This document shows positions 30,593 through 40,857 of a DNA stretch of 64,000 nucleotides, one piece after another. Origin of the DNA: Oscillospiraceae bacterium (GTDB lineage Bacteria > Bacillota > Clostridia > Oscillospirales > CAG-272); NCBI GenBank assembly GCA_015064255.1, contig SVSP01000005.1, positions 24,857 to 88,856 on the forward strand. The letters run 5' to 3'. The notes beneath the pieces were generated by a model. That model did not search any database. It saw only the letters and a program-made list of their open reading frames with translations, and was not told where the DNA came from. The position numbers were made by a program, and so were the translations under genes. The number at the start of each line of letters is the position of its first letter. The first letter of the stretch is position 1.

Positions 30593-30710
30593 ACTCCTTC
30601 TGTTTGATTTATTACGCGAATGCGCTACGGCAATAATTTTATCATACTAAATTATATTCGTCAATCGAAAATCAAAAATTAATTTGTAAACAAATATTTC
30701 CTGAGACTAC

Positions 30711-30900
30711 TTTTAAAAAAGTTTTGCTCGAGCTTTTTCAAAAGCTCGCAGGGTTTCTTAAGGGACGGAGTCCCTTAAGTCGCGCGGGTATCAATGCGCG
30801 AAACACACTCGTGCATCTTTCCAAGGGTTCTGCCCTTGGAATCCGGTTAAGAAACTTTTTGAAAAAAGTTTCTTAACAATCTTCAAAAACTTTACTTAAA
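30711..30900. repeat. Composite of several consecutive palindromes (mosaic repeat family)
   Basis: GAGCTTTTTCAAAAGCTC; CTTAAGGGACGGAGTCCCTTAAG; CCAAGGGTTCTGCCCTTGG; AAGAAACTTTTTGAAAAAAGTTTCTT. Confidence 0.85.
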
Positions 30901-30916: not shown

Positions 30917-31108
30917 AAAAACGGCGGAATTTTCCGCCGTTTCAATGTGTAGACAAAGTCATTAAAATTAACTGAGGAAAGGGGAAAACCATCTCAAACG
31001 CCGAAGTTTTTTTCTTTTCCTCAGACTCCTATCCCTTTTCCTTGGCTAAAAACTTTTCTCTTATTATTTTGCCTTCAGTCTGAAACGGCGGATTTTTCCG
31101 CCGTTTTG
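30917..31108. other. Conserved intergenic structured element, copy A, with flanking duplicated terminator hairpins
   Basis: AAAACGGCGGAATTTTCCGCCGTTT ... TTAACTGAGGAAAGGGGAAAACCATCTCAAACGCCGAAGTTTTTTTCTTTTCCTCAGACTCCTATCCCTTTTCCTTGGCT ... GAAACGGCGGATTTTTCCGCCGTTTT; ~90% identical core at 39250-39335 on the opposite strand. Confidence 0.85.
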
Positions 31109-31143: not shown

Positions 31144-32619
31144 TTATATCGACTTTGCATTGAGAAGCCCGTCGTATTCGTCTAGGAATGCTTCGGCAAC
31201 CTTATAGAAACGCGCGGTGAGTCGGTTTTCATCTGTAAATCCGAATATCATAGCGAGGTTTCCGAAGTACTTGTCGATTATCTGAACTCTGAGACGGAGC
31301 TTCTTTTCCTCCTGCCAATCGGCGCTGCAAGCGCAGTCGTACATATGACCCGGCTCGGGATATGTCGCTATAATGTCAGAGTAGTTTTCCTGCGGGAATT
31401 TTTCAAATTCATTGTGCCCGAAGCCGAATTTGAGAGCCTTTACACCCTGCGCATTTTCGTAGTGAAGAGTTCCGCAGTCCTTTTCAAATTCAAATCTCAG
31501 CCACTTGAAGCCCATACGGTTGGGATCGCAGACGAAGGTCTTTTTGTTGATTTCAGAAGCAAAAGCACTTTCTTTTTCGCCGTCGAGGAAGAAAAGCTCT
31601 TTTTTTGCAAGCTCTTCCTTGAGTTTGCCGTAGGCTTCCTTGTTTTCGGGCAGGGGAGAATCTTCGAGGTTTTCGATAATAGAGCCGTAAAGAGCTTCGA
31701 ACATAGGCTCGTATTCGCGAGGATCGCCCTGATTGTCAGAGTTGATGGCGAAAACAAAATCGTGCTCGGGGTCACAGAGTGCGACCTGAACGCCCATTCC
31801 GAGCATAGCAAAACAGCCGTTGGGTGCGCCCCAGATCTGATAGCCGTAGCCGTGACCGTTGCAAACTCCGAAACCGTAGGGATTGTTTGCGGCGCTCATT
31901 GTGGTCGCTTCGGTAATATATTCTTCGCTGAGATAGCGTTTGCCGTTCCAGGTACCCTTGTTAAGAACGAATCTCGCGAAAAGGAGAAGGTCTTTTGTCG
32001 TACACATTACGCCCGAATCTCCGAAGGAATGTCCGCCGGGGGCTTCAAGGCAGTAAGCGTCCTTGGAAAATCCTATATCGTCAAGCACTTTTTCCTGAAG
32101 ATATTTGAGGAATTTCTTTCCGGTTACCTTTTCAACGATGACTCCGAGCATAAACGAGCCGGGGCTGTCATAGCGGAAGATCGTTCCGGGATATTTGTCG
32201 CCGTTTGTGCGGAAATAACATTCCACTCTATCCTTGGTTTTTGAACCGAACCACCAGCAACCTTCAAATTCAAGCGCCGTCTCCATTTTCAGCATATCGC
32301 GGATCGTTACCGTGCATACTTTTTTGTCCGGGCTTTCCTCTACGTATTCGGGAAAGTATTTTATCATTTTGTCGTCAAGAGATATAAGTCCGTCCTGGAC
32401 GCAAAATCCGATAGCAATAGATACAAATGTTTTTGAAACAGAATACATTCTGTGCTTGAAATCCTTGTTGAAGGGTTTGTAGTAGCCTTCTGCGAAGATG
32501 TCATTTCCCCTCGCCATAACAACGCTGTGTGTGGAAAGCTTTTTCGCATCGAGGCGGGCAAAAAATTCAAGCACCTTTTCGGAAGGTATTCCGACTTTTT
32601 CGGGTGAACAGTAGTTCAT
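31144..32619 (-). CDS. Serine hydrolase, beta-lactamase class C/PBP4-like
   Basis: HRMYSVSKTFVSIAIGF (SxxK), YDSPGSFMLGVIVEKVTG, GHGYGYQIWG. Confidence 0.9.
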   Translation of the reverse strand: MNYCSPEKVGIPSEKVLEFFARLDAKKLSTHSVVMARGNDIFAEGYYKPFNKDFKHRMYSVSKTFVSIAIGFCVQDGLISLDDKMIKYFPEYVEESPDKKVCTVTIRDMLKMETALEFEGCWWFGSKTKDRVECYFRTNGDKYPGTIFRYDSPGSFMLGVIVEKVTGKKFLKYLQEKVLDDIGFSKDAYCLEAPGGHSFGDSGVMCTTKDLLLFARFVLNKGTWNGKRYLSEEYITEATTMSAANNPYGFGVCNGHGYGYQIWGAPNGCFAMLGMGVQVALCDPEHDFVFAINSDNQGDPREYEPMFEALYGSIIENLEDSPLPENKEAYGKLKEELAKKELFFLDGEKESAFASEINKKTFVCDPNRMGFKWLRFEFEKDCGTLHYENAQGVKALKFGFGHNEFEKFPQENYSDIIATYPEPGHMYDCACSADWQEEKKLRLRVQIIDKYFGNLAMIFGFTDENRLTARFYKVAEAFLDEYDGLLNAKSI

Positions 32620-34559: not shown

Positions 34560-34960
34560 TAGTAAAGTTTTTGGGAAACCAAAACCCTTTTTTCAAAAAG
34601 GCTTTGTACAATACAAACATACCAAAAACGCAGTTGCGAGTTTTTTCGTTCATTTCTGTGTCGACAGAAATGAACCAAAGAGCGACTTCCGGGAAGGGAG
34701 GTATCCCTTCCCCAAGAGACCCCAACCCTCTTTCGCAAAACCTCCCGACGTCTATGGTCGGTTTTGCTCGCGCCGCGTTTTTCCGCGGCGAATGATACCG
34801 TTAATATTTAATATGATACTTTATAAAGTGCCAACATACAGGAATGTGAAGTTCTTGTTTTTTCTTTTCAGTAAAGTTTTTTGGAATCCAAAACCCTTTT
34901 TACAAAAAGGGTTTTGTCGGGTTCTTAGGGCAGAGCCCTAAGCAGAGGCCCTTTGGCTAA
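34560..34960. repeat. Cluster of mosaic palindromic intergenic repeats
   Basis: AGTAAAGTTTTTGGGAAACC; GTTCATTTCTGT-GTCG-ACAGAAATGAAC; GGGAAGGGAGGTATCCCTTCCC; CGCCGCG-TTTTTC-CGCGGCG; AAAACCCTTTTTACAAAAAGGGTTTT; CTTAGGGCAGAGCCCTAAG. Confidence 0.85.
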
Positions 34961-37876: not shown

Positions 37877-38088
37877 ATTTGTTATCTCATTTCGAAGTAT
37901 TACTTGGGTATATATTATGCCTTTCGTGCAGGCTGTTCTAAACACGGAAGTAAGGTCGGCTGAAAAATATATACGTTATTATAACATATTTTAAAATATA
38001 ATCAAGTTTTTTTGAAATTATCTTGACACAATTATTTGAATATGTTATCATTTCTATGAAAATCCCTATAAAGAAAGGTGATAAAGCT

Positions 38089-39171
38089 ATGAAAGAAAGA
38101 TGGACAAAAGAACAGGCGTGGGAGTGGTGGAATTCACACGATTGGCTCGTAGGATGCAACTACGTTCCGTCACAGTCTCCCGTGCTTTCGGTATGGAAGG
38201 AAGACACACTTGAAGAAATAATGCCTTCTCTCAAGAGCGAGCTTGAGCTTGCGGCAAGCATAGGATTTAATACCGTGCGTATGTGGTTTCCCTTTAATCA
38301 TTGGTACCACGAAAGAGAAGTCGCTCTTGACAGAATTGACAGAGTGCTTGGAATAGTTGCAAGCTACGGCATATCGGTTATGCCCGTGCTTTATAACGAC
38401 TGCGTATCCTTCGGACGTCCAGAAAAGGTTGTTATACATAAACCGATGCCCGGACACGGACACTACGACGTCGGATATCACGGCGGTCACAAGAACAGTC
38501 CGCATATCGTTGTTCCCAAGGATGCAAAGGGCTGGATACTTTGGGACGAGCCCGAATACCGCGAGATCTGCGAAGAATATCTCCGCGATATATTCAACCG
38601 CTTCGGCAAGGACGAGCGCATAATTATGTGGGATATGTGGAACGAACCGGGCAACAGCAAGAGAGACGATATGAGTATTCCTTACCTCAAGAGAGCTTTT
38701 GAGGTTGCAAGAGAATGCGATCCCATTCAGCCGCTTACCGCAGGTCCTTGGAGATACCCCAAGAATTACGGTATAGACGAAACTCTCGACGTTTCTCCTA
38801 TCGAGCGCGTTGCACTTGACCTCTCGGATATCGTAACCTTCCATTGTTACGAGAATTTCGATATGATACAGAGAATAGTCAAACAGCTTGAAAAAGAGGG
38901 CAGACCTATGGCTAACACCGAATGGCTGCACAGAATCCTTGACAACAATATCGAGGAACAGATCCCCTTCTATCACGAAAAGAAGATCGGAAGCTACAGC
39001 TGGGGCCTTGTTGCGGGCTTTGCACAGCATTATCTGCCTTGGGAATGGCTCAAGGCGGCACGTCCCGAGCTTGACTACACAAAGTGGCAGCACGACCTTT
39101 TCAACGGAGATCACACGCCGTATAATCCCGTTGAGATCGAAATTATCAAAAAACACGCAGGAAAAATTTAA
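38089..39171 (+). CDS. Glycoside hydrolase, GH5-like (cellulase-fold)
   Basis: IGFNTVRMWFPFNHW, IIMWDMWNEPGNSK (acid/base NEP), YENFDMIQRI, MANTEWLHRIL. Confidence 0.85.
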   Translation: MKERWTKEQAWEWWNSHDWLVGCNYVPSQSPVLSVWKEDTLEEIMPSLKSELELAASIGFNTVRMWFPFNHWYHEREVALDRIDRVLGIVASYGISVMPVLYNDCVSFGRPEKVVIHKPMPGHGHYDVGYHGGHKNSPHIVVPKDAKGWILWDEPEYREICEEYLRDIFNRFGKDERIIMWDMWNEPGNSKRDDMSIPYLKRAFEVARECDPIQPLTAGPWRYPKNYGIDETLDVSPIERVALDLSDIVTFHCYENFDMIQRIVKQLEKEGRPMANTEWLHRILDNNIEEQIPFYHEKKIGSYSWGLVAGFAQHYLPWEWLKAARPELDYTKWQHDLFNGDHTPYNPVEIEIIKKHAGKI

Positions 39172-39183
39172 ATTGCTTTAACC

Positions 39184-39379
39184 AAAAACGCCTACGGATT
39201 TAATCCGTGGGCGTTTTAGAATGAAAGTAAGAAATAAAAGAAAAATTTTCAGCCAAGGAAAAGGGTTGGGAGTTTGAGGGAAGGAAAAAAACTTCGGCGT
39301 TTGAGATGGTTTTTCCCTTCCCTCAGTTAATTTTATATATGTTGAAATGCCTACGGAAATTAATCCGTGGGCGTTTTTA
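39184..39379. other. Conserved intergenic structured element, copy B, with flanking duplicated terminator hairpins
   Basis: AAAACGCCTACGGATTTAATCCGTGGGCGTTTT ... AGCCAAGGAAAAGGGTTGGGAGTTTGAGGGAAGGAAAAAAACTTCGGCGTTTGAGATGGTTTTTCCCTTCCCTCAGTTAATTTTA ... GAAATGCCTACGGAAATTAATCCGTGGGCGTTTTT. Confidence 0.85.
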
Positions 39380-39567: not shown

Positions 39568-39619
39568 CTTCGTTTAAACGAAGAAAAATACGGCAAAAAT
39601 CGCTTCGTTTAAACGAAGC
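39568..39619. promoter_or_regulatory. Pair of perfect palindromes CTTCGTTTAAACGAAG / GCTTCGTTTAAACGAAGC
   Basis: 39568-39583 and 39602-39619; centre-to-centre 35 bp; directly 5' of the regulator ORF. Confidence 0.85.
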
Positions 39620-39636
39620 AGAATAAGAGTTGTATA

Positions 39637-40857
39637 ATGTATAGAATAACAGTAAAAGAAGCAGCGGAGCGTTGGGGCGTTACGGTGCGCCGCGTGCAGG
39701 ATCTCTGTAAACGCGGAGAAATACAGGGCGCACTGCGTTGGGGCAGGACCTGGATGATACCGTCGGACGCAACCTATCCCTCGGGAAGGAACATAAATAC
39801 AGACGGGCCGAATTTGCCGATGCCGAGGAAAAGTCCTTTTCTTGATATGACAGATTTGTATAATACTCCGGGAAGTGCCGAAGACGCCGTAAGAGCGCTT
39901 GAAAGCAACCCCGAAGCACAGGCGCTTTTCGCCGCAGAGATCGCATACAGCCGCGGAGAGATCGATACCGTGTATGAATACGCGCAATACTTTCTGTCAT
40001 CTCACTCGGGATTTTACGCAATACTCGGAGGAGGATTGCTCCTGTCACTCGTGGCGATGTGGAGAGGCGATGCCGAGCTTTGGAAAAAAGCAAAGAAGCA
40101 TCTGCTTGAAGCACCTTGCAAGGATGACAGGGACAGAGATATCGTTCTTTTGACACTCGCTTCGGCGGACAGCGCGATAAGAAATACCGAAGATTTTCCC
40201 GATTGGTTTGCAAGAGGAAGCTTCAACGAGCTTCCCGCGGACGCGCATCCCGCCGCGAGAGTATATTACGTGAAATATCTTTTGATAATTGCGCAAAATA
40301 CGGCGATGAAAAGGCAGGAAACCTCGGACGGCTTCGGATTTATGAAGGCAATACCCTACATAACAGAGCCGCTTATATCGCAGGCTTGCGTTGAAAAGAC
40401 TGTGATATCCGAGATATATTTAAGACTTCTTTGCGCGATAGCTTATTATGACACGGGAGAGATAGAAAGGGCAACGGAGCATATAGACAGAGCGATAGGG
40501 CTTGCGCTTCCCGATGATTTTATCGGAATTCTTGCAGAGCACCGCAGACAGCTCGGCTCTCTGCTTGACGAAAGAGTGGGTGCTGAATCTCCCGAAGCGC
40601 TTAAAAAACTCAAGGACCTGCATAAGCAGCTTTCCGAAGGCTGGACAAAGCTTCACAATCAGGTGCTTGAAAGAAGAGTATCTGCCGACCTTTCTCAAAG
40701 AGAGCGCGAGGTTGCGCGTCTTGTTGCTTTCGGACTTTCAAACACGGAGATATCCGAAAGACTTGGTATTTCAAAGGAATCGGTCAAGTCACTTATCACT
40801 ACAATTCGTAATAAAACGGGTATAGTAAAACGTGTCGAATTTTCCGATTACGTGTAA
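39637..40857 (+). CDS. Regulator with N-terminal excisionase/MerR-like HTH and C-terminal LuxR-type HTH
   Basis: N-term MYRITVKEAAERWGVTVRRVQDLCKRGEIQGALRWGRTWMIP; C-term LSQREREVARLVAFGLSNTEISERLGISKESVKSLITTIRNKTGI. Confidence 0.88.
   Translation: MYRITVKEAAERWGVTVRRVQDLCKRGEIQGALRWGRTWMIPSDATYPSGRNINTDGPNLPMPRKSPFLDMTDLYNTPGSAEDAVRALESNPEAQALFAAEIAYSRGEIDTVYEYAQYFLSSHSGFYAILGGGLLLSLVAMWRGDAELWKKAKKHLLEAPCKDDRDRDIVLLTLASADSAIRNTEDFPDWFARGSFNELPADAHPAARVYYVKYLLIIAQNTAMKRQETSDGFGFMKAIPYITEPLISQACVEKTVISEIYLRLLCAIAYYDTGEIERATEHIDRAIGLALPDDFIGILAEHRRQLGSLLDERVGAESPEALKKLKDLHKQLSEGWTKLHNQVLERRVSADLSQREREVARLVAFGLSNTEISERLGISKESVKSLITTIRNKTGIVKRVEFSDYV

Follow-up and report, generated by a model that had tools for sequence, protein, structure and literature searches.

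In the 64-kb window, the whole stretch of DNA that was analysed, a gene on the plus strand (38023..39171) is followed by two nearly identical hairpins with a short repeated element between them. The question raised by this locus is what the element is, and how it came to lie between two copies of one terminator. The element, copy B, occupies positions ~39217-39345 and is a degenerate member of a family of about 140 bp. Its left hairpin, CGCCTACGGATTTAATCCGTGGGCG (39189..39213, plus strand; direct repeat AACGCCTACGGATTTAATCCGTGGGCGTTTT), and its right hairpin, TGCCTACGGAAATTAATCCGTGGGCG (39348..39373), which runs into a T-tract, are direct near-duplicates, as an earlier sequence-only reading of this DNA had described. 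Between them, on the same strand, lie a left terminal inverted repeat (39217..39232), a AGCCAAGGA box (39251..39259), the variable, purine-rich 5' arm of an internal hairpin (39276..39290), its conserved loop ACTTCGGCGTTTGAGATGG (39291..39309), its 3' arm (39310..39324) and a right terminal inverted repeat (39330..39345). Comparison with other copies shows both repeats to be degenerate: TAGAATGAAAGTAAGA stands for the consensus TCAGACTGAAGACAAA on the left and ATTTTATATATGTTGA for TTTGTCTACACATTGA on the right. The gene whose terminator is the putative target does lie directly upstream, but the family given to it earlier, GH5-like, is replaced by a weak match to the GH2 C-terminal TIM-barrel model (20 bits, cut-off 21).

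Copy A, on the minus strand at about 31106-30919, is likewise flanked by the palindrome AAACGGCGG..CCGCCGTTT twice. The gene-proximal palindrome AAACGGCGGAAAAATCCGCCGTTT (31083..31106) is followed by the left terminal inverted repeat CAGACTGAAGGCAAAA (31067..31082), the right terminal inverted repeat TTTGTCTACACATTGA (30942..30957) and the distal palindrome (30919..30941). Both repeats are retained in copy A, whereas those of copy B are worn. The targeted gene (31144..32619, minus strand) belongs to the beta-lactamase family (PF00144). The hairpin is duplicated as the earlier description had it, but bracketing by two terminators holds only in part: the proximal hairpin has just three T left before the inverted repeat, and the distal hairpin with its T-tract is the only one of copy A that scores as a terminator. 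The T-tract and the scoring suggest that transcription may read through the element to the distal copy. An 18-mer shared by copies A and B has exactly two exact matches in the window, compared to 0.08 expected.

Two other repeats lie close to these copies. A second dispersed family, GTTAAGAAACTTTTTTCAAAAAGTTTCTTAACCGGATTCCAAGGGCAGAACCCTTGGAAAG...GGGACTCCGTCCCTTAAGAAACCC, occurs beside copy A (30710-30900 and 34600-34945) and has many matches in three congeners, among them one (G001) that lacks the element. Directly upstream of a regulator gene at 39637, CTTCGTTTAAACGAAG occurs twice (39568-39620), possibly as an operator pair; a fainter version of this pair is found in the congener G003.

The genome that contains the window (G000) is a 2.5-Mb assembly of 59 contigs; G001, G002 and G003 are its congeners, and L numbers denote loci or stretches. 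BLAST finds 40 matches to the element in G000, many of them stopping exactly at contig ends, none in G001, one remnant in G002 and 42 in G003, an assembly that is 85% complete. Typical copies measure 139-153 bp between the hairpins. They consist of a left inverted repeat TCAGACTGAAGACAAA, an A-rich spacer, the AGCCAAGGA box, the conserved-loop hairpin, a short spacer and a right repeat TTTGTCTACACWTTGA, the terminal inverted repeats of the element being TCAGACTGAAGACAAA and TTTGTCTACACATTGA. The element is thus short, non-coding, multi-copy and dispersed (~140 bp, ~40 copies in 2.5 Mb), as is characteristic of a MITE. Contig ends that are broken inside the element can be paired again by their hairpins (L010/L027, L013/L023, L026/L008, L028/L005, L237/L030 and L190/L223). 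One contig, L016, fuses the left half of one locus with the right half of another, which is either a misassembly or a real exchange.

Flanking hairpins, empty sites and orientation

Nearly every well-preserved copy sits between two near-identical hairpins that are specific to its locus. The similarity of left and right flanks, summed over local alignments of the 55 copies with both flanks (from two genomes and, for one remnant, a third), is 1941. In 5000 random re-pairings of the flanks the mean is 887, with an SD of 48 and a maximum of 1150. This comparison with a shuffled control had been proposed in the sequence-only reading, and the true pairs lie far above the re-pairings, in agreement with its claim that such duplicated, locus-specific hairpins are not expected by chance. 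The direct repeats take in the whole palindrome and are mostly 17-35 bp long, with 51 bp at L189. The flank comparison found no recognisable hairpin pair at L004, L007, L011, L022, L036 and others; these copies are taken to be old, recombined or misassembled. In four loci (L014, L003, L302 and L114) the two hairpin copies have loops that are reverse complements of each other. This suggests that the palindrome existed as a hairpin at some stage or was flipped later, and it counts against a plain fill-in, which gives no account of inverted loops.

Sequence comparison indicates that the flanking hairpins are target-site duplications, because element-free orthologous sites of both window copies and of a third locus hold one terminator. 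G003 has kept the orthologous region of both window copies intact. At the site of copy B its intergenic space is smaller by about 215 bp and contains a single terminator, AAAACCGCAGAAATGACTCTGCGGTTTTTT; at the site of copy A there is also one terminator and no element. At the third locus, L024, the insertion with the same hairpin is common to G000 and G003, and G001 has a single diverged terminator without the element. All of these empty sites come from other species, and the terminator as it was before insertion is therefore not visible letter for letter. The search for empty sites had likewise been suggested at the outset. Together with the flank pairing it bears out the description of a dispersed element flanked by locus-specific duplicated terminators, and adds target-site duplication and empty sites to the MITE-like properties of the element. 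At L018 an element is present in both G000 and G003, with a subfamily sequence that is not the same in the two, and the hairpin pair is near-identical within each species and differs between them, including compensatory changes in the arms. Two histories are compatible with this: separate insertions, each of which copied the terminator already in place, or a pair that became homogenised afterwards.

An insertion that duplicates its target creates a second one, and tandem arrays of terminator and element are therefore expected. Such arrays are found at L143 (3797-4116), L179 and L226, which points to successive insertions into the duplicated hairpin or to unequal crossing-over. Elsewhere (L064, 4410-4738), a 280-bp insert with the ends CAGACCGCTGACAAA / TTTGTCATCAAGCTG lies between two identical palindromes ACCGCCAAGGTGAACCTTGGCGGT; it seems to be a further MITE of this type that lacks the core there.

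Orientation was counted at matched-hairpin loci, with genes called by codon usage, orthologues counted once and contig ends paired. Between co-directional genes the element is in the sense direction at about six loci (L001, L006, L017, L179, L191 and L193) and antisense at about nine (L189, L194, L218, L230/L024 and the five contig-end pairs L010/L027, L013/L023, L016/L021, L029/L016 and L237/L030). Convergent genes flank about 15 loci, divergent genes none. Terminators are therefore the target and orientation is free. The two copies in the window do run in the sense direction of their upstream genes, as had been noted; the fixed-orientation rule derived from them, for which random orientation elsewhere had been named as the refuting outcome, is refuted by the genome-wide tally.

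The internal core

Inside the MITE are the AGCCAAGGA box and a hairpin whose 19-nt loop, ACTTCGGCGTTTGAGATGG, is conserved, while its stems are hypervariable yet perfectly paired. The shared 18-mer occurs at more than 100 places in MAGs of gut Clostridia, and has a few unrelated chance matches in other phyla. GCCAAGG stands upstream of the loop in 96 of the 108 matches with enough upstream sequence, and the AGCCAAGGA box is invariant in 99 of 99 cores with GCCAAGG upstream of the loop in other genomes. An exact match to the loop was how these genomes were found, and its conservation in them is therefore partly built in.

The stem was examined by shuffling its arms between copies. In the correct register, with one bulged A, 9.45 of 11 pairs are Watson-Crick compared to 5.93 +/- 0.15 after shuffling. 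An earlier test had given little (6.95 pairs of 10 versus 6.73 shuffled) because its stem register was off by one base. The 107 flanks contain 90 distinct 5' arms, and in good stems 96% of the cells are Watson-Crick. Selection for RNA pairing would be expected to leave more G-U than A-C; the counts are 11 versus 11 in other genomes and 17 versus 6 in the two congeners. Rfam contains no match to the element or to the core above gathering score, and the weak listings at lax thresholds look like chance.

The outer flanks of the core vary by genome: IS1182-like ends are present at L050, L086, L114, L115 and L134, and quite different flanks at L130, L133 and L141. Among 391 genomes of the class, the exact core pattern was matched by the own genome alone and is therefore patchy. 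A gene travelling with the core can be rejected, as no recurrent protein family was found beside more than 100 cores in other genomes. Since the core occurs with unrelated outer ends in many genomes of gut Clostridia, it may be a separate, independently spreading structural unit, either a DNA hairpin or an RNA, that is absent from Rfam and is carried by different elements; this suggestion is tentative, and the odds are somewhat against it. In several Clostridia MAGs the AGCCAAGGA-loop core adjoins an element-specific hairpin, TTTTGTTGC..GCAACAAAA (L133, 146-422; L106, L130, L137, L111 and L124). At L133 this hairpin is on both sides, 208 bp apart, making up a differently built element. Worn core hairpins, GAGAAAGGGAAAAACTTCGGCGTTTGAGATGG, were also seen without terminator flanks at or near coding regions (L032, 3710; L036, 1523).

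IS1182-family relatives and a proposed mechanism

The ends of the MITE are IS1182-like, while its interior is unrelated to the insertion sequence. No IS1182 transposase (PF13751) and no DDE_Tnp_1 domain (PF01609) was found in the own genome; of the 118 genomes of the GTDB family, 16 have a PF13751 transposase. One of these, from another genus (G038), contains an intact insertion sequence of 1,584 bp (L242) with perfect 18-bp ends, TTCAGACTGAAGACAAAG, on both sides. Both ends include the left end of the MITE, TCAGACTGAAGACAAA, in 16 of 16 bases, so that the MITE has its inverted repeats in common with an autonomous element, those of copy B being degenerate. The L242 transposase belongs to the IS1182 family (NCBIfam NF033551, 469 bits, cut-off 270). 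The same model assigns all five transposases tested to this family, at 385-469 bits.

In the wider order, IS1182 insertion sequences with CAGnCTGTCGAAAAA-type ends show the same duplication of a whole palindrome. The near-complete genome G304 contains one insertion sequence of ~1.5 kb (1,526 bp between matched ends) in eight essentially identical copies. Six of its seven copies with both flanks have direct repeats, of 20, 21, 30, 22, 26 and 33 bp, each of which is a whole terminator palindrome abutting the insertion sequence. The seventh, L305, has unlike hairpins, the right one of which matches the hairpin of a contig-end copy (L312), so partners have been exchanged or misjoined. Whole-palindrome repeats also surround other IS1182 elements (27 bp at L287, 30 at L296, 31 at L303 and 25 at L254; L302 as well, save for its inverted loop). 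The CAG-ended transposases form one clade (support 99/100) that stands apart from IS1182 relatives with GGGGCTGT ends, around which no duplicated palindrome was seen.

Could the terminator pairs have arisen without any transposition, by selection or local duplication of tandem terminators, with the element as a conserved regulatory RNA between them? Tandem units (L143, L179 and L226) and the strong base-pair covariation of the core hairpin would agree with this. However, the empty sites have single terminators, the hairpins are locus-specific, the inverted repeats are common to the L242 insertion sequence and an identical pattern surrounds intact 1.5-kb insertion sequences, all of which makes such an origin very unlikely.

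The element is most probably (at a probability of roughly 0.88) a MITE that is moved in trans by an IS1182 DDE transposase with CAG-type ends, which would target terminator palindromes and duplicate the whole stem-loop. Several features of the sequence point to this: the inverted repeats, direct repeats as long as the hairpin that stop at the palindrome's feet, single-terminator empty sites, free orientation, intact IS1182 elements that behave alike and the 16/16 match to an end of one of them. It is from these that a CAG-ended IS1182 transposase, absent from the own assembly, is presumed to have moved the present copies.

According to the proposed mechanism, an IS1182-family DDE transposase specific for CAGnCTGTCGAAAAA-like ends would mobilise the MITE and recognise the palindrome of an intrinsic terminator by its structure, in either orientation. 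Joints would be made at both feet of the palindrome, and repair would duplicate the whole stem-loop, so that the element would end between two copies of the gene's terminator hairpin. Because one insertion sequence yields duplications of differing length that end at palindrome feet, the cut sites would be set by the structure of the target and would have no fixed stagger. In the preferred model the 3' ends of the element would attack an extruded cruciform at its 5' feet (pathway b, Fig. 13, PMC5678879); the cruciform is a predicted intermediate. Wan and colleagues (PMC5678879) considered this pathway for IS1182-type elements, with 3' ends joined at the 5' feet of the cruciform and duplication of the whole stem-loop as the outcome; they proposed this outcome and did not demonstrate it for IS1272. 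Judging by their sequences, the present elements match the product expected of pathway b.

The MITE is thus a recognisable kind of mobile element, and whole stem-loop duplication is the variant. For IS1182-type transposases, stem-loop replacement has been published (IS1272), whereas duplication of the whole stem-loop is a proposal there. In six copies of one insertion sequence the duplication ranges from 20 to 33 bp and follows the length of the palindrome that was hit, and dozens of MITE copies in two genomes agree with this. This pattern of lengths points to target cutting that depends on structure and not on a ruler. The MITE also accounts for the identical terminator pairs in these genomes and for the assembly breaks there, and its insertion leaves the coding sequence unharmed and regenerates its own target. 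ISfinder tables presumably list variable-length palindromic repeats for IS1182, and the behaviour may be known to curators, which limits the novelty.

Comparison with known systems

REP-like elements, moved by a Y1 (RAYT) transposase via single-stranded hairpins, resemble the MITE in being small, dispersed palindromic repeats with a conserved box 5' of the hairpin. There is one weak Y1 transposase (31.5 bits) in the own genome. However, no core adjoins this sole Y1 transposase, none was found in the 85% complete assembly of G003 with its 42 copies, and the MITE has true terminal inverted repeats and long target duplications, which are not known as Y1 features. Membership of this class is even less likely than an origin without transposition.

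Least likely of all is a retrotransposing RNA element homing to terminators: group IIC introns do prefer intrinsic terminator hairpins, as the MITE does, and its interior is structured (fold z-score -9.3, mostly owed to hairpins), but these introns are unrelated ribozyme/reverse-transcriptase elements that insert beside the hairpin and are not known to have inverted repeats or to duplicate the hairpin, whereas the present element is not of intron-like length, has terminal inverted repeats, has no Rfam match above any gathering score, uses both orientations about equally and has the whole hairpin duplicated. The analogy with these introns, drawn in the sequence-only reading, gives way to the DNA-transposon inverted repeats and whole-hairpin duplication common to IS1182-family DDE insertion sequences.

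For a MITE moved by an IS1182-type transposase, the closest published systems are IS1272 and TnSha1 of Staphylococcus (IS1182 family; PMC4923244, PMC5678879), whose transposase is of the same family as that of the gut relatives. The targets of IS1272 are palindromes of no specific sequence, frequently transcription terminators, and either orientation has been reported at one target (PMC4923244, PMC5678879). Palindromic or terminator targets and either orientation are also found here, and the palindromic target reported for some IS1182 members extends to the gut relatives (cf. PMC4923244, PMC5678879). The outcome at the target differs: according to Wan and colleagues (PMC5678879) and Furi and colleagues (PMC4923244), the stem-loop is replaced or deleted by IS1272, with no duplication left behind, whereas the element described here, a non-coding MITE, duplicates it whole. 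Replacement of the IS1272 type does not describe the present loci, where a stem-loop stands on both sides; the only exceptions, with unlike hairpins on the two sides, are L242, L294 and L292.

The IS1182 elements of gut Clostridia with CAGnCTGTCGAAAAA ends (G304, L254, L287, L296, L302, L303 and L242) are alike in their ends, their terminator target and their whole-palindrome direct repeats, and the ends of L242 are identical to the left repeat of the MITE. They encode a transposase of ~480 residues, whereas the MITE consists of the ends and an unrelated interior only.
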